Below are positions 9,009 through 17,818 of a DNA stretch of 64,000 nucleotides, piece by piece. Under the pieces are notes generated by a model, which had not been told where the DNA came from, did no database searches, and saw nothing but the letters and a program-made list of their open reading frames with translations. Made by a program: the position numbers and the translations under genes. Source of the DNA: an uncultured Treponema sp. (GTDB taxonomy: Bacteria; Spirochaetota; Spirochaetia; Treponematales; Treponemataceae); NCBI GenBank assembly GCA_947177175.1, contig CAMWTK010000001.1, positions 1-64,000 on the forward strand. Direction: 5' to 3'. The first letter of the stretch is position 1, and every line of letters starts with the position of its first letter.

Positions 9009-9716
9009 TCACAATTTGATTGTTTTTATTAAATTTGACCAATCCCTATACGTCATGCATGGATACTTATCTTGATAGAAATTTTGAACAAGTTGAATTG
9101 CCTCCAAGGTATGAAGATTTCCGCCGACTAATAAGGGAGTTAACTTTCTCAATAATTCAACGTCGGTAATTTTATATAATTTATCATTAGTAGTAAGCAT
9201 TTTTGCACTGTTTTTGTTTTCAGAAAGAATTATAGGTATGCCGAAAAATATATCAATCTGCTCAAAAAACTTAACGACAGATTTTCTTTTGAATAAAACT
9301 ACCTTATCGCCATTTCTGAGATTCTTTTGCAAAAAAACATTTTCTAGCACATGGTTCTGCCAACTCTGACGCGAATAAAACGAGACGTTATCCTGCACAT
9401 TTAGCCTTTGTTTCGTAGTATAGTAATTCCAACAGACATACACATCGTTTTCTGCATCATATCCCAAAAACACAAAGGGAATGTCAGATTGCTTTATAAA
9501 ATCAAATTCTTCTCGCAGTGGCAGTTGTGCTCTGTTAATATCGGGTCTGTCTTTAAAATATGCCGATGAAATATTTTTTATATATATGAAATACTCTTTC
9601 TCTGCAAAAGAAATCTTGAAGGGCTGACATCCTGTTATGAAAGAAAAATCTTTTGAAGCGTTCATTTCATGCATAAACAGCGAAAGCAATTTATTTCCGC
9701 TAATCTTTCTGTTCAT
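9009..9716 (-). CDS. Uncharacterised protein, terminal gene of the Z1/MORC/methyltransferase operon
   Basis: ORF MNRKISGNKLLSLFMHEMN...; adjacent to and in the same AT-rich operon as 9717-10697. Confidence 0.65.
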   Translation of the reverse strand: MNRKISGNKLLSLFMHEMNASKDFSFITGCQPFKISFAEKEYFIYIKNISSAYFKDRPDINRAQLPLREEFDFIKQSDIPFVFLGYDAENDVYVCWNYYTTKQRLNVQDNVSFYSRQSWQNHVLENVFLQKNLRNGDKVVLFKRKSVVKFFEQIDIFFGIPIILSENKNSAKMLTTNDKLYKITDVELLRKLTPLLVGGNLHTLEAIQLVQNFYQDKYPCMTYRDWSNLIKTIKL

Positions 9717-10697
9717 TTACAGACTCCTGAACAAATTGCTCTTGCTCGATTCTAATGCTTCCCTCGGAATAGAAGATACGTTTGCCAAGCAGCATGAGAA
9801 TTTCACATCCGAAACTTCGGGCGGAACATCCGTATCTTTTATTTTGGGAATCGCTCTTGAATCAAAAAAGCGAAGCGTGTCTGCCGCCGCCTGATAATCA
9901 TAACAAAAATCAAATGCGTTTTCCAAATCGCTTCCCAAAGCCTTGAAAACTATGGAATCAAAGACAGTTTGAATCTGTATATCAGATATTCGAGAGAAAA
10001 TCATTGAACGCAAATCACTGATATTTTTGCCAATTCCAGTCTGAGTCGTAAATATGGAGGCAACAATAAGTCCTGAATGTTCATTCTGATTTAGCTGTTC
10101 CAAAGAAAAGGTATGGATTCTTTCCTTTTTGCCAGTGCTTTTTACTTCAATCTTGTCAGTTCCATCATTGAAATCAAACTTGCTCTCAGGACTGCAATGC
10201 CATGCCTTTATCATATATTCAGGATTCTGTGATTGCGAGATTAGGAACATTTCCGCCCATAATCCTTGAACCGTTTTTTCCGTGGGTTTTGACGCATGAC
10301 TGAACAATGCGATAATTTTATCTATTTCTTTACTTATTTGCTTTAGGGAGGGATTTTTAGGAATGTTTTGCAACAACAAATATATGACTTCAAGAAAATA
10401 GTTCTGAAAATCATAACTTTCCGAATTAAGCATTATGATGGAACACACCTTCAAGGATTCTTCGTTATCATCTCCAATCAACTTGCAATTCTTGTTAAAC
10501 AAGATAGAAATAAATTTCAGTTTCAAGTCTGCGACAACATTCTCAAATTTACAGTCAATCAGAAACATAGGCGTTCTATTTTCCGAAATACCCAAAAGAA
10601 ATTTTTTAGAGAGGCACAATTCTGTAACCGGCGTAAAGTTGTTTTTCAAAGAATGTCTATTTTGTAACTCGGAATACAGTTCGCAGATTTTATCCAT
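9717..10697 (-). CDS. PD-(D/E)XK nuclease-like protein (DUF4420-like)
   Basis: SKFDFNDGTDKIEVKSTGKKERIHTFSLEQL contains D...ExK core. Confidence 0.75.
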   Translation of the reverse strand: MDKICELYSELQNRHSLKNNFTPVTELCLSKKFLLGISENRTPMFLIDCKFENVVADLKLKFISILFNKNCKLIGDDNEESLKVCSIIMLNSESYDFQNYFLEVIYLLLQNIPKNPSLKQISKEIDKIIALFSHASKPTEKTVQGLWAEMFLISQSQNPEYMIKAWHCSPESKFDFNDGTDKIEVKSTGKKERIHTFSLEQLNQNEHSGLIVASIFTTQTGIGKNISDLRSMIFSRISDIQIQTVFDSIVFKALGSDLENAFDFCYDYQAAADTLRFFDSRAIPKIKDTDVPPEVSDVKFSCCLANVSSIPREALESSKSNLFRSL

Positions 10698-10704
10698 AAG
10701 TAAA

Positions 10705-12903
10705 CTATCCTACATAATTAACCGCAAAATCGTCAGGATAATAAATTGCCAGCGTATAAGCCGTTTTTCCTTTCCATTTTTTGGATTCACAACTCAACTC
10801 TATATTATGTATCTGAATGCAAATTGAGTCTTCAAAACAAATTTTCATATCACCGGGATAGACATTTTTTCCGCTCGGCGAATGTCCGGAAAACAAATAT
10901 GTGCTTAACCTTTCCGTGTTTGTGTCAAATGCTCGTTTTCTCGGTTCGCTTTTGTAAGCCATTTGAATTATATACGCAAATTTCAACGGATTCCCGTTTT
11001 CCAATGAAGAAAGATATTTTAAATATCGCACTGTAGCCTGTTTGCGTGCGGCATCGGGCATGTTCTGACATCTAAAATCAGAAAGAAACTGAATTACTTC
11101 GTCAATATCCAATTTCAAGTAACGATGGTCTCTGTCGTCTGTGCCGAATTTTTTATATAATTTGAAATCGTCTTCATGTTTAGAAAAAAGAGTATCAACT
11201 GTGTTTTTATTCCCTTCAATACTGTTTGTCTGAAAAGCATTCATCTTTCTCCAACCGTTCAGTTTGTTGATGACGACTTCCTTTGTAAGAATATTCCTGC
11301 GCGTCGCATTTAGTGATGGACTTGTCAAAAGCAAGTGCTCCACATTCTCAAGACTGTCATTTCCTTTAAGCCATTTGCGCATTTCTTCTTCATGGTCAAC
11401 ATATTCCGTATACTCCTGCCGCACATCGCGCGGCAAAAACACCCTGCATGACAAAAGGTATTTTTGCTTGTAGCCAAAGAATCGACACCGCTGCTGAATA
11501 GTGTCGGCATTTGATTTTCCGATTGTGTATCGTGGCATATATGTGGTAGCAAGATTCTCAACTGTAAAACCTCGGTTCAGCATATCTGCACCAACAAGAA
11601 TATGAGAAGAATAATCATTCCATGGAATTTCTTTGTTTTCCCCATTTTTCTTGTTTCTGCTTATGATCAGCTCAATATTTGTGTCTTTTATTATATCTGG
11701 AATAAAAGACGCGATGTCAGAAAAAACTGGATATTCTATATTTTTCGCTTTGTATTCTTGTATTGCCATTGGATATGTGTTTTCAAAATCTGAGAGTAAC
11801 TCTCTGAAAGCAATGTCATTCTTATCCAAATTAAAAGTAGTTATCCAGCCGTTTATTATATTTGACACCCAATTATGAAATTTCTCGCTTGCATCCTGTT
11901 CTTTGTCTGCATGAACCATCATTGAAAGAAATTTCTCATCCTCTTTGTATTGCACGACAACAGCAACTGAAAGAATATGAAGTTGCAGCGCGGTTATAAG
12001 GGTTTTTGGTGGCTGTGAAAGATTATTGCGCTTTGAATGATATGTTTCTTCTTTTGGGATTTCAATTATAAGACCAGGATTTTCCTTAAAAAATGTTTTT
12101 CCGCCTGTGTATGATTTTCCGGGCGTTAAGACAGTATGGTGTTTCGGAGAGAGCAAATCCATTATACTGATAAGGAGAGGTCCTTGCGGAGTCGCTGTAT
12201 ACTGGATATAAGAATGGTTTGGCAAAGAACTTCTTAATTCTGTGATTCGTCTATAAGTTGTTGTATATTCATCATCTTCCCACTCTTCGGACTTGCTGTT
12301 TTTGTACGCATATCCGTTAAGGCTTGCCTGGTCTGCCTCATCATCAATTATCATTACGCCGTCATTTTTTAATACATTTTTCATTCTTGAAGTACCGAAC
12401 ATATCTGAGATGTCTTTGATATGTTGATGCTGTTTTAAAACCGTTATTAAAACTGTAGGATTGGTGCTCATCTGTAACTCATTTGCAATTCTGTCCAAAT
12501 CCTCTAACTTTGGATTCTGGTGAAGTTTATACCACTTACGATTATTTCCTTCGTTTATCAGGTCTTTTCTTAGGCGCTTTGTTGTTTGTTCGAGGAGATT
12601 ATTTTTGTTTCCCGCAAAATAAATGATGATTCTGTAACCGCTGTCGCTCGCAAGTGCTGAAAGAGCGGTAAAAGACATTGTTTTTCCGCTCTGAACATAA
12701 CCAACAACAAGACTGGTAACAGATTGCGGTTTACCTGATTTTGGATCTGCACAATTTGATAGAATAGAAATGGTTTCGTTTTTGGAAGTCTCCAATTCTT
12801 CCGCAGAAAGTTTAGTGAAACGGCTGTATAATTCAGTTGCTCTTTCACCAAAAACAGGCGTGAAAGAATCTGGCTTGTTTTCTTTTTGAATCCGCACTTC
12901 CAT
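10705..12903 (-). CDS. Z1-domain endonuclease/SF2 helicase-like protein
   Basis: Walker A VVGYVQSGKTMSF, DDEADQAS, SHILVGADMLNRGFTVENLATTYMPR. Confidence 0.9.
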   Translation of the reverse strand: MEVRIQKENKPDSFTPVFGERATELYSRFTKLSAEELETSKNETISILSNCADPKSGKPQSVTSLVVGYVQSGKTMSFTALSALASDSGYRIIIYFAGNKNNLLEQTTKRLRKDLINEGNNRKWYKLHQNPKLEDLDRIANELQMSTNPTVLITVLKQHQHIKDISDMFGTSRMKNVLKNDGVMIIDDEADQASLNGYAYKNSKSEEWEDDEYTTTYRRITELRSSLPNHSYIQYTATPQGPLLISIMDLLSPKHHTVLTPGKSYTGGKTFFKENPGLIIEIPKEETYHSKRNNLSQPPKTLITALQLHILSVAVVVQYKEDEKFLSMMVHADKEQDASEKFHNWVSNIINGWITTFNLDKNDIAFRELLSDFENTYPMAIQEYKAKNIEYPVFSDIASFIPDIIKDTNIELIISRNKKNGENKEIPWNDYSSHILVGADMLNRGFTVENLATTYMPRYTIGKSNADTIQQRCRFFGYKQKYLLSCRVFLPRDVRQEYTEYVDHEEEMRKWLKGNDSLENVEHLLLTSPSLNATRRNILTKEVVINKLNGWRKMNAFQTNSIEGNKNTVDTLFSKHEDDFKLYKKFGTDDRDHRYLKLDIDEVIQFLSDFRCQNMPDAARKQATVRYLKYLSSLENGNPLKFAYIIQMAYKSEPRKRAFDTNTERLSTYLFSGHSPSGKNVYPGDMKICFEDSICIQIHNIELSCESKKWKGKTAYTLAIYYPDDFAVNYVG

Positions 12904-12905
12904 GG

Positions 12906-14420
12906 TCAGTCATTCTCCAAAATATACTGATTGAACAAATTCCTGACATTTCCCACATTAGTAGTTCCGCTATCAGGCGCTTTTATCTCTGCTTTTGCAA
13001 AAGCCATAAGAATTCTTATGACAGGCTCATAGTCTTTGTCTTTCTTAAACTGCGGATAACAATCAAAAAAAGAATGATTTAAGTTAATCTTACATACAAA
13101 CACATCTTCTTCTTTCCGCACAGAATACAAGGCCATGCTTTCTGTATCGGTAATCAGCTCATATTTTAATTCACATTCTTTGCTTCCAATTAAAATAGGT
13201 TCTGTATATGTTTCCGCAGGTTTTGAATTATTGATTAACTCCTCGTTCTTTTTTATTGCGGCAACATTATTGATTTTCAATTCTTCCTGCTCAATTTTTT
13301 CCTTTTTGAACAAGGCGGAGGTATTTTTCTTCTCAAAGGTTTCTTTTATCTCCTGCGCTATCTCTTCTTTTTTCACACGGCTTCGCTGTCGATACCCGTC
13401 TGCCTGCAAAAAGATATTTGGTTCATTTTTTCTTATTTCATCGCGGATATCTTCAAGAAGTGCCTGCAAATCATCTTCAGCTTTGAAACTGTTTTTATTG
13501 AATGTAACCTCAAATCCATCCAATTCAAGTTCGCCAAACAAGCGTTTATATTTAAATGTACCGACAGATCCAAAAATGCAGGTTGGAAAATAATGCTCGT
13601 CACCACCCCCTACAATAACACGTCCACGTCGGAGCAAGACAAGTCCGTTCGCGCCCTGTTGAATCTCATCTAAAATGGCGATAAAACCGTTTGCCTTGTA
13701 TTTCCCCGCATTAAAATGAATTTCTTTTTTCCATAAGATACTTCCGCCGTCAGGGTTTTTATAAAATGGCGCGTTTAATATTTTATAATTCGGAGCAGTA
13801 AGTTTTTCTTCATTCACAAAAATTTCAATTTCATCATTTCGGAGATAATAACGATAGATACTCGACAAATGTTTTTTCACCCTTTCCAAAGAATTTGGCT
13901 TAGGTGCATTTTTTGAGAGATTTGTAAGTATAATTTTTGTATAATGCTCCTTTTGAGATTTTGTCTTTTCAGTTATAGCCAGCACCTCTTTTTCTTCTTC
14001 AACGACTTTGTTCAAATCAAACGAAAGAATTCTTTCCTTGCTTTCACCTAGGGCTTTTGTCGTTATTGTCCAATTATCGGCAAGCCAAACGGAGGCCGTC
14101 TTCATACCCATTCCGTACTCATTAAGTCCCGCCCTGTTCTCGGGAATATTCGCCGGCTCAAATGCGCGCAAATAATTTTTCTCGTTTATGCCAGCCGCAT
14201 TATCAACTATGGTCAGAGTTTTCTGTTCCCAGTCCATTGTTATTCGGATGCAAAGTTTGTAATCAGGCTCATAAGATTGTAAGAGATTTTTATTATCAAA
14301 ATAATTCTGAACTGCATTATCAACATATTCGCCAAGCGTATTCGAAAGCGTATTGGACAAATCCCTGAATGTGGTGTATACATTCGGTTTCAACGCGATT
14401 GAAACTTGTTTTATTTCCAT
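12906..14420 (-). CDS. MORC/Hsp90-like GHKL ATPase
   Basis: LGEYVDNAVQNYF, IVDNAAGI, EYGMGMKTASVWLA. Confidence 0.9.
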   Translation of the reverse strand: MEIKQVSIALKPNVYTTFRDLSNTLSNTLGEYVDNAVQNYFDNKNLLQSYEPDYKLCIRITMDWEQKTLTIVDNAAGINEKNYLRAFEPANIPENRAGLNEYGMGMKTASVWLADNWTITTKALGESKERILSFDLNKVVEEEKEVLAITEKTKSQKEHYTKIILTNLSKNAPKPNSLERVKKHLSSIYRYYLRNDEIEIFVNEEKLTAPNYKILNAPFYKNPDGGSILWKKEIHFNAGKYKANGFIAILDEIQQGANGLVLLRRGRVIVGGGDEHYFPTCIFGSVGTFKYKRLFGELELDGFEVTFNKNSFKAEDDLQALLEDIRDEIRKNEPNIFLQADGYRQRSRVKKEEIAQEIKETFEKKNTSALFKKEKIEQEELKINNVAAIKKNEELINNSKPAETYTEPILIGSKECELKYELITDTESMALYSVRKEEDVFVCKINLNHSFFDCYPQFKKDKDYEPVIRILMAFAKAEIKAPDSGTTNVGNVRNLFNQYILEND

Positions 14421-15766
14421 TACTCTATCTCCAGCAGTCTTTCCGCGATTCGTCTTACGACTTCGACATTAATCGCGTTTCCAAAAGCCCGAAACGCTTC
14501 CGCCACAGTATCAGGATAGTACTCCAAATCACCCATGCATTGTAACTTAGCAGCCTCTTTGCTTGTCATGTATCGTCCTTTTTCACCATTAGGAGTTTCT
14601 ACCCACGGGAATATTGGAATTTGGGTTGTTGTTAATACAAGAGCGGGAGAGTATGTCGGCAATTTTACGCGAATCCCAGAAGGCCTGAATTGTACTATTT
14701 TGTCATACAATGTATGTTTTACCCCCTTGTCATGACCGCAATTCCATTCAAATTTTTGGTGGCTGTTTTTGAAGCCATGTTGCTTCAACTTCTCCAGCCA
14801 TGGATCTAATATCTGCTTATGTGCCTGATAAAATTCCCTGTTCCACTTTATGAAATTTTTTTTCCAGTCAGGAAAATTATGATTTTTTTCAGTTTTATTA
14901 GTTTGCGCATATATTGGAAGGCAACCAAGCAAATCATCCTTCGAATTTCCTTGAACATGACAACCAAATTTTCCTTTTTTCCCTTCAAGTGATTTTGTAT
15001 GCTGATAGAATGGCGCGACAGTCTCATACTTATAATCCGCCCCCCATTCCATAGCCCATACAGGAAAAGTTGGAATGGGAATGTCGTGCGCTGTCAATAA
15101 ATCAAGAAATTCTTGCCATACTTGCATATGTATTCTCGTTTGAGGTTTCAATGTCATATAAACGGTATCATTTTTGTCTATAATATCTTCAATACTACAT
15201 TTTGTACTTTTTTTATACGGGGGAAAAGAAAAGCCCCTCAGCCCACCTTTATCTATCAGCCGCCCTACAATATAAATTCTTGTACGGTGCTGTGGAATTC
15301 CAAAATAATGAGGAGATATAATTTCATCACGTATATCATACAGTTCTGAAAGTTGTGCTGAAATAACTTTATAGGTATTTCCCCCATCGTGTGATTTTAA
15401 ATTGGGAACATTTTCAATGAAAACATACTCAGGCTTACATTTTTTCAATATTTCCATAATTTTATAAAACAGGTTTCCTCTTTCTTTATCATCATCGAAT
15501 CCCTGCTGTTTCCCTGCCTTTGAAAACGGCTGGCAGGGAAACCCCGCACATAAAACCTGCGGCTGATATGGCAATATATCTTTTTCTATGTCTACTTTAT
15601 TTATATCGCCGGCACATTTCATTTTAAAATTTTTCTCATAGAATTGTTGCAGTTCCGGTTTTATTTCGCTTGCAAACACACATCTGCCGCCAAGCTTTTT
15701 CATTGCAAGATGAAAACCGCCTATTCCAGCAAATAAGTCTATAAATGTAAAAGATTTATCTCCCAT
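14420..15766 (-). CDS. dcm: DNA (cytosine-5)-methyltransferase
   Basis: FIDLFAGIGGFHLA, CAGFPCQPFSKAG, FIENVPNL, C-terminal RAFGNAINVEVV. Confidence 0.95.
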   Translation of the reverse strand: MGDKSFTFIDLFAGIGGFHLAMKKLGGRCVFASEIKPELQQFYEKNFKMKCAGDINKVDIEKDILPYQPQVLCAGFPCQPFSKAGKQQGFDDDKERGNLFYKIMEILKKCKPEYVFIENVPNLKSHDGGNTYKVISAQLSELYDIRDEIISPHYFGIPQHRTRIYIVGRLIDKGGLRGFSFPPYKKSTKCSIEDIIDKNDTVYMTLKPQTRIHMQVWQEFLDLLTAHDIPIPTFPVWAMEWGADYKYETVAPFYQHTKSLEGKKGKFGCHVQGNSKDDLLGCLPIYAQTNKTEKNHNFPDWKKNFIKWNREFYQAHKQILDPWLEKLKQHGFKNSHQKFEWNCGHDKGVKHTLYDKIVQFRPSGIRVKLPTYSPALVLTTTQIPIFPWVETPNGEKGRYMTSKEAAKLQCMGDLEYYPDTVAEAFRAFGNAINVEVVRRIAERLLEIE

Positions 15767-15786: not shown

Positions 15787-15816
15787 ATTATACCATAGGA
15801 CTATCCTTCCTGTAAA
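15787..15816 (-). promoter_or_regulatory. Putative sigma70 promoter of the methyltransferase-Z1 operon
   Basis: Minus strand TTTACA-N18-TATAAT; spacer contains AGGA-TAG-TCCT dyad. Confidence 0.55.
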
Positions 15817-15840
15817 CCTCCCATCGCATACCATATCCCA

Positions 15841-16037
15841 TCAAGCCCCCTGCGTCCGTCCGTCTTGACGGACGCGCCCATTTATCAAGACAACGGTTTC
15901 CGTTTGTCTTGATGAACGAACCATATCCATCAAGATGAATGCATCCTGTTTGTCTTGATGAACATACCGCGTTTATCAAGACAAATGTATCTATTTTATC
16001 AAGATAAAAGTAAAAAAAAGCGGGATTTTTTCAAGAA
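15841..16037. repeat. Array of alternating inverted TCAAGA/TCTTGA elements at 22-23 bp spacing
   Basis: Cores centred near 15843.5(+),15865.5(-),15887.5(+),15910.5(-),15932.5(+),15955.5(-),15978.5(+),16001.5(+), looser copy at 16034.5(+). Confidence 0.85.
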
Positions 16038-16086
16038 AAACGGGCACAAATTCGGGATAAAATCGTACCAAAGGTGGGATAAAAAA

Positions 16087-16118
16087 CGAGACCCGCACGC
16101 CGAAAAAGGTGCGGGTCT
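16087..16118 (-). terminator. Rho-independent terminator of the HU-like gene
   Basis: GAGACCCGCAC...GTGCGGGTCTC hairpin followed on minus strand by GTTTTTT. Confidence 0.85.
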
Positions 16119-16172
16119 CTGAATGGTTATGACGGCTTCATGCTGCCCGGACACTCTGGGCAGGTCCGCCTC

Positions 16173-16658
16173 CTACGCGCTTTCGGCGGAATTTCCGGGG
16201 AAGTCCGCCGGGACTTCGGACGGCACGGGCACTTCTTCGCCGCTGTCGTCGGTCAAGTACCGTGCGTCCAGCTTGACATACGCGGGTTTTTCAAGCTTGC
16301 GCTTGAGCATGATGTCGGGCGTGAACATCACTCGCACCCCCTCAATGTCGTTAGCGGTCACTTCGGTCGCCCGCTCATAGCCGCTGCACTGGGGATTAAC
16401 TTTCAGCCCGACCTTGAAGATGCCGAACGAGTTGAGCCGCACTTTGTAGCCGAGCAGCAGATACTTGGGCAACGTCCGAAGCAGGCTGCTGATAACGCCC
16501 AGCACCTCCGTCGGGGTGAGCGTGGTGTTTTCGGAAATCTCTTCCGCCAGCTGGTGTATGTCAATCTCTGAGATATATGCCGGGGCAGGATAGAACTTGC
16601 CTTCGGCATCCATGTCGCGCGGATTCAACCGCTTCCTAGAAACAAATGGGATTGCCAT
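16173..16658 (-). CDS. HU-family DNA-binding protein (Bacteroidetes/Treponema HU-related type)
   Basis: YISEIDIHQLAEEISENTTLTPTEVLGVISSLLRTLPKYLLLGYKVRLNSFGIFKVGLK. Confidence 0.8.
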   Translation of the reverse strand: MAIPFVSRKRLNPRDMDAEGKFYPAPAYISEIDIHQLAEEISENTTLTPTEVLGVISSLLRTLPKYLLLGYKVRLNSFGIFKVGLKVNPQCSGYERATEVTANDIEGVRVMFTPDIMLKRKLEKPAYVKLDARYLTDDSGEEVPVPSEVPADFPGNSAESA

Positions 16659-16956
16659 TTTTTTCCTCCTTCCTATTCCGCTCCCCTGCGCTTCCCGTCC
16701 GGGATTGCGCGCCGTCCGCCTGACAGACTTCCGCCCACGCTGTTTTCGGCCGCAGGATTGCGTTTTTTTTATTCATAATGTCGTATAATATTGACATCGC
16801 AAAAATACAAACGTAATATATATCATACACACAATAAAGTCAAGCAAAAATGACCCTAAATTACATAAAGTATTATTTTTACGACTTTTTATAAAAATTC
16901 TGATTTTTGCTGTCTGAAACATGACTTTTTCTGCGATATGCGGTATAGTAAGAGCC

Positions 16957-17277
16957 ATGAACGATATGAGACCGACCATAAAAGAAATTGCCCGGAACGT
17001 TGCGGACAGGCGGAAAGCACTCGGCCTAACGCAGGCACAGATTGCTGAGCGGCTGCAAAAAAGCCGCGCCTATGTCATCGCGCTAGAGGCCGGGGACGTG
17101 CAGCCGACCGTCTCAGTCATCTACGAGCTTGCGGAGATTTTCGCTTGCACCGCGCACGACCTGATGCCCCCGAAGCCGCTTGACGAAGAGCGACCTGAAA
17201 TGCGCGGCAGCCGCGTCAGCGCTGAGACGGAAGATGCGGTTGCCCGGATGCTCAAGGAGGAACGCGATGCATGGTGA
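16957..17277 (+). CDS. XRE-family HTH transcriptional regulator
   Basis: VADRRKALGLTQAQIAERLQKSRAYVIALEAGDVQPTVSVIYELAEIF. Confidence 0.85.
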   Translation: MNDMRPTIKEIARNVADRRKALGLTQAQIAERLQKSRAYVIALEAGDVQPTVSVIYELAEIFACTAHDLMPPKPLDEERPEMRGSRVSAETEDAVARMLKEERDAW

Positions 17278-17818
17278 GACACGGAATTATGAGACGCAAG
17301 TTGCCAAAGACATCCTGAACGAATTCGGTATCACGACTAGGGATAAACTGCCGGTCGATATGGACGCAATCCTTACGGCAAAGGGCTTTACCGTGAGCGA
17401 GCGCAATCTTCCCGAAGACCTCGCCGCCGTCCTTGACACGCGCACCGCAGGAAAACCGATCCTGCTGGTGGACAGGCATTTGGATCTCCCCAAAAAACGC
17501 TTCGTGAAAGCATGCGAGCTGGGGCATTTCCTGTTGGACGGAGACTTCACGGGCGTACGGATGGACAAAAAGGCATTTTTCTCGCAAGCCCTGAGCGGCC
17601 TGCCGGCAGACGAATCCGAGCGCAGGGCAAACCGTTTTGCCTATGCCCTGCTCATGCCAAAAAAAATCCTCGAAGAGCAGGCGCAGAAAAACAACGGCAA
17701 AAGCGACGACGATTTTGCAAGCACGCTCGCGGCCGTTTTCGGCGTGAGCGTGCTTGCGGTCGCCGTCGGCTTTGTTATCTCCGCGCTGCTGAGTGACAAC
17801 AAAGGCAAGAAAAAATAG
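17267..17818 (+). CDS. ImmA/IrrE-family metallopeptidase-like protein with CELGH in place of HExxH
   Basis: ILLVDRHLDLPKKRFVKACELGHFLLDGDF...ERRANRFAYALLMP; overlaps the XRE gene by 11 nt. Confidence 0.75.
   Translation: MHGETRNYETQVAKDILNEFGITTRDKLPVDMDAILTAKGFTVSERNLPEDLAAVLDTRTAGKPILLVDRHLDLPKKRFVKACELGHFLLDGDFTGVRMDKKAFFSQALSGLPADESERRANRFAYALLMPKKILEEQAQKNNGKSDDDFASTLAAVFGVSVLAVAVGFVISALLSDNKGKKK

Follow-up and report, generated by a model that had tools for sequence, protein, structure and literature searches.

The window, a stretch of 64,000 nucleotides from an uncultured Treponema sp. (contig CAMWTK010000001.1, positions 1 to 64,000), carries an array of short dyads between the gene for an HU-family protein, HU-HIG, and a defence operon that begins with a DNA methyltransferase gene. 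The features discussed here are as follows.

9009..14420, minus strand: remaining genes of the operon, encoding a MORC-like GHKL ATPase, a Z1 ATPase, DUF4420 and MTaX1
14420..15766, minus strand: C5 cytosine methyltransferase (DCM), the first operon gene, outside the array system
15787..15816, minus strand: sigma-70-like promoter of the DCM operon (11/12), reading away from the array
15837..16008, no strand assigned: array of eight dyad units at 22-23 bp pitch
16009..16087, no strand assigned: proximal part from terminator to array, with half-site-like motifs, TTTTATCC(C), at intervals of about 22 bp
16088..16119, minus strand: terminator hairpin of the HU-HIG gene (z -6.6), followed by a minus-strand T run
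16173..16658, minus strand: HU-HIG gene, 161 aa (PF18291, E 1.3e-20), the proposed array binder
16921..17818, plus strand: XRE regulator and M78 peptidase, capH/capP-like and divergent from HU-HIG

Prokaryotic MORCs within restriction-modification operons are of a kind already described (PMC2292703), and orthologues of the DCM/MORC operon are present in three of the genomes compared (G020, G028 and G108).

The array units are marked by TCAAG(A/C)/TCTTGA hexamers starting at 15841 (TCAAGC), 15863, 15885, 15907, 15930, 15953, 15976 and 15999, with successive spacings of 22, 22, 22, 23, 23, 23 and 23 bp. The eight units at 22-23 bp reported in the preliminary description are real, with eight hexamers in 200 bp where 300 shuffled versions of the window gave three at most; the orientation + - + - + - + + and the location, with the HU terminator (16088-16119) on one side and the operon promoter (15816-15787) on the other, are also as it gave them, and most of its unit centres are exact, two being one base off (15909.5 rather than 15910.5, and 16033.5 rather than 16034.5 for a loose copy). 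The loose unit, at 16031, lies in the proximal part, which is similar in relatives both in sequence and by blastn match, and the terminator hairpin is conserved in relatives as well. A pattern search of the 2.38-Mb assembly places the consensus dyad TTYRTCWWGAYRAA at four positions, all inside the window array, and the reversed control pattern at none; the dyad is confined to one locus, and the genome holds no dispersed copy of the array. The link proposed to defence genes did not hold, as described below.

Arrays beside HU-HIG genes

The window HU-HIG protein scores 74.1 bits against the PF18291 profile, whose curated cut-off is 26.2, which places it in that family. Its structural model has an HU/IHF fold (pLDDT 82), with 4fmr from Bacteroides vulgatus as the top structure match and HU/IHF next, so that the domain family and fold represented by PF18291 and 4fmr are those of the protein flanking the array; the Pro-bearing arm typical of HU is, in our reading of the alignment, not evident. 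An array is not part of the PF18291 family description as far as this is searchable, and open-licence papers yielded no relevant description of HU-HIG-linked arrays or of palindrome arrays in Treponema. We note that conserved, apparently structured 5' leaders precede HU-HIG genes at four loci (L034, L062, L033 and L037) and also occupy the 150 bp upstream in the close family; a scan of HU-HIG 5' leaders at 12 loci gave no Rfam match near the gathering score.

Searching 60 relatives with the array region by blastn gave matches in genomes of the same genus only, four of the five lying directly downstream of a gene orthologous to the window HU-HIG and the fifth (L014) being weak and elsewhere. 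Protein-level searching of 118 genus genomes, with later searches added, gave 16 loci of the window HU-HIG type, the window included, with the SUG108 record and one G114 copy counted as one locus; the genomes compared are mostly draft assemblies, and the encoded proteins are 64-74% identical to the window protein. An array of four to eight units lies just past the terminator at 16/16 of these loci, whatever gene follows, a count to be read in the light of detection thresholds set during the analysis, of weak arrays judged by eye once the HU-HIG link was known, and of the common ancestry of the loci, which are therefore not 16 independent observations.

The unit of the close-family arrays is a 14-bp dyad. 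Among 74 unit-to-unit distances, 42 are of 23 bp, 31 of 22 bp and one of 45 bp, giving a mean of 22.58 bp, or 2.15 turns at 10.5 bp per turn; successive units therefore rotate by about 54 degrees, and the earlier proposal that every element sits on one face of the DNA does not hold strictly. Strict alternation of orientation, also proposed, holds for the window copy but not for the family, as in G117, where the unit centres read TT TT TT TT AA TT. Conservation is higher in units than in spacers (0.77 vs 0.57 between G082a and G082b; 0.80 vs 0.35 between G000 and G117), and dyad complementarity is as high as 92% at offset 3, against 59-69% at offsets 4, 6 and 7. Within-unit covariation, by contrast, was confined to offset 8.

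The palindrome core differs among copies of the close HU-HIG type, being CTTG in G000, G005, G082, G117, G121 and G125, CCGG in G011/G067, ACGT in G012 and two G114 copies, and ATTG in G088 and the third G114 copy. The HU-HIG proteins of G012 and G028 are very similar and their array cores different, so that specificity may lie elsewhere or drift quickly. Paralogues within G082 and within G114 have diverged arrays, which argues against simple inheritance.

More distant HU-HIG genes (33-45% identity) have arrays of other palindromes, mostly upstream of the gene (TTCTCASTGAGAA, AAACGCAGTRCGTTT, CACTGTATC and CGCTTAGCG), with the GACAGTACC array lying downstream of its gene. A TTCTCASTGAGAA-type array is also found in another family of the same class (L154), and an HU-HIG gene from a different, distant family of the phylum (L161) has an array of its own, and so does C62, the second HU-HIG gene in the window genome. 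No array was detected at four strong HU-HIG matches (L156, L168, L169 and L170), and none at the conventional HU loci (0/9). Across the 118 genus genomes, TTCTCASTGAGAA occurs in 9/31 with a detected HU-HIG gene versus 6/87 without (Fisher p=0.003).

Similar arrays also occur apart from HU-HIG genes. In stretches of the window genome totalling 1.24 Mb, about 11 other intergenic arrays of similar pitch lie beside housekeeping genes, and such arrays are thus not specific to defence; many have no HU-HIG gene close by. The window genome also has five similar four-unit elements of alternating TACGGCGTA/TACGCCGTA near ordinary genes (L112:2800-2910, L115:12200-12310, L122:1580-1680, L122:15380-15480 and L129:1410-1510), which resemble REPINs or bidirectional terminators. 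In the same genome, two six-unit GTGGAWACGTWTCCAC arrays at 22-23 bp pitch (L097:8230-8370 and L118:70-210) resemble multi-operator arrays and have an FKBP gene and an alcohol/aldehyde dehydrogenase gene as neighbours, and weaker arrays (L135:779-928 and L138:944-1093) are found close to longer ORFs whose match to the HU-HIG profile is below the cut-off. In other genomes, direct-repeat arrays (AATACAGAATTTGGCGA, about 22-23 bp; L016:3922-4130 and L175:6995-7144) lie no more than a few kb from the DCM/MORC operons of G028 and G020.

Dispersed copies and alternative explanations

In G114 and G320, copies of 130-170 bp of the HU-linked arrays lie dispersed amid ordinary genes; these have sharp ends, and no target-site duplication was seen around them. 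The ACGT palindrome of G114 forms arrays at about 10 loci, which fall into two families separable by unit order and flanks, each with one HU-HIG-linked member: C111 and C112 group with the array of HU copy C96 (about 95% identity over 146-155 bp), and C15, C58, C69, C73 and C104 and, more weakly, C7 group with that of HU copy C20. No HU-HIG gene was found by hmmsearch at the dispersed G114 loci. Elsewhere in the G114 genome there are also further single sites of the ATTG type found at its third HU-HIG copy, G320 has four dispersed copies that are 87-94% identical to its HU-linked array, flank included, and additional array sites are present in G129 and G295. Dispersed G114 arrays (L198 and L199) also adjoin AAA ATPase/nuclease-like ORFs (e.g. 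L199:3079-4647) and metabolic genes.

This organisation resembles that of REP/BIME-REPIN repeats and their RAYT partners (PMC2817692, PMC3116915) in its short, regularly spaced, intergenic palindromic units, in the alternating orientation of the window copy, in a cognate protein gene with its own repeat type, several such pairs being possible per genome, and in dispersed intergenic copies in some genomes (G114 and G320, with sites in G129 and G295, but not for the window palindrome). It differs in that the partner is an HU-family protein rather than a Y1 transposase, the units are 14-bp dyads at a fixed 22/23 bp in arrays that usually flank the gene on a single side, and the copy number is roughly 1-10 rather than hundreds. 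Could the arrays nonetheless be repeats of the REP/BIME kind that a RAYT or another transposase mobilises, the HU-HIG gene having only come to lie beside one of the copies? The dispersed 130-170-bp copies with their alternating palindromic units at intergenic sites would suit that explanation, BIMEs likewise containing REPs in alternating orientation (PMC2817692), but we consider it unlikely: a Y1 (IS200/IS605-type, PF01797) transposase gene is absent from five of seven genomes tested (G114, G320, G129, G295 and G011), none was found beside the window array, neither TTYRTCWWGAYRAA nor its relatives have a GTAG/CGTC head, and HU-HIG is array-linked in all close copies. Because Y1 is missing from those five genomes, including ones with dispersed arrays, and the head is not visible, we reject a RAYT system and, judging by this analogy, regard the HU-HIG array as resembling the REP/BIME-RAYT organisation but not a member of it. 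The BrickBuilt MITE of Porphyromonas gingivalis, in the accessible part of its description (PMC4596501), is similarly an intergenic, dispersed array with a period of about 23 bp, but consists of tandem direct 23-nt repeats without spacers, has terminal inverted repeats, and adjoins a PF00216 DNA-binding protein at only one element; its direct-repeat minisatellite architecture, as given there, leads us to reject identity. A further mobile-element explanation, in which an AbiL-ATPase/HU-HIG cassette terminates or recombines at the array, much as at a multi-site transposon end, is improbable. An AbiL-like AAA ATPase gene (L016:8870-10276, L017:10033-11430 and L015:7844-9235) is usually divergent from HU-HIG in close relatives with enough sequence, the window having XRE/M78 there, and the two G082 paralogue cassettes resemble each other from the ATPase C-terminus as far as the outer array edge, beyond which the flanks are unrelated, as expected of a cassette end; the opposite end, however, has no matching repeat, no transposase or target duplication was seen, and in other HU-HIG subfamilies the arrays are upstream. 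Phage, plasmid or viral origin was rejected for want of matches.

The remaining explanations assign the array to its immediate neighbours. That it is the operator of the DCM/MORC operon, with the capH-like XRE protein, MORC or another regulator controlling the promoter at 15816-15787, gains from its place directly upstream of that promoter and from dyads at about two turns; it is nevertheless quite improbable, as the array trails HU-HIG at all 16 loci regardless of the next gene, which leaves the assignment to the defence operon unsupported, and no array like that of the window stands at the DCM start of the orthologous operons in G020 and G028, nor in G108, whose contig ends there. An operator of the defence operon is accordingly rejected, and of the cooperative operator array first suggested the defence connection falls away, whereas an operator-like array is still plausible because the units are dyads with rigid phasing. 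The other suggestion, an RNA switch, attenuator, or guide/decoy hairpin, is scarcely credible: strong hairpins are indeed predicted on both strands (z -2.7 to -6.7), as had been claimed, but palindromic units fold trivially, and with a terminator on one side of the array and an outward-reading promoter on the other, it should be missing from both neighbouring transcripts. Spacer ends of neighbouring units across the family are complementary at 0.13-0.22 against a background of 0.23-0.27, which together with the position outside both transcripts makes an attenuator or guide unlikely, and an RNA element was rejected on the lack of spacer covariation and on Rfam matches that fall far below gathering scores.

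A putative partnership of HU-HIG and its array

The association with HU-HIG at all 16 close loci suggests that the array is a cis-linked partner of the gene, rather likely a cognate binding-site array of its product, and in relatives the type from which a BIME-like repeat family was founded. HU-HIG is on this reading a putative array binder: its dimers would occupy the dyads, and the fixed pitch of two turns would stack or wrap them into one nucleoprotein complex that may set both local DNA architecture and HU-HIG expression, and copied arrays would turn other intergenic sites into targets of the same protein. Textbooks present HU proteins as non-specific DNA packagers; HU binding is largely non-specific, and the IHF consensus differs from the array dyads. 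HU-fold proteins such as IHF and HU do bend DNA, and plasmid iteron arrays have binding sites near two-turn spacing, but no replication gene was identified beside the window array.

A broader possibility, which we put forward tentatively and consider doubtful, is that HU-HIG proteins of the Spirochaetota each recognise their own phased palindrome array sequence-specifically and change that specificity fast, in a transposase-free, REPIN-like alliance that spreads copies and organises or silences DNA. If this is true, the HU fold can support sequence-specific recognition and acquire new sites rapidly, a second gene-repeat partnership would stand beside that of RAYT and REPIN, one without a transposase, and the arrays would offer a direct assay for what HU-HIG proteins recognise.
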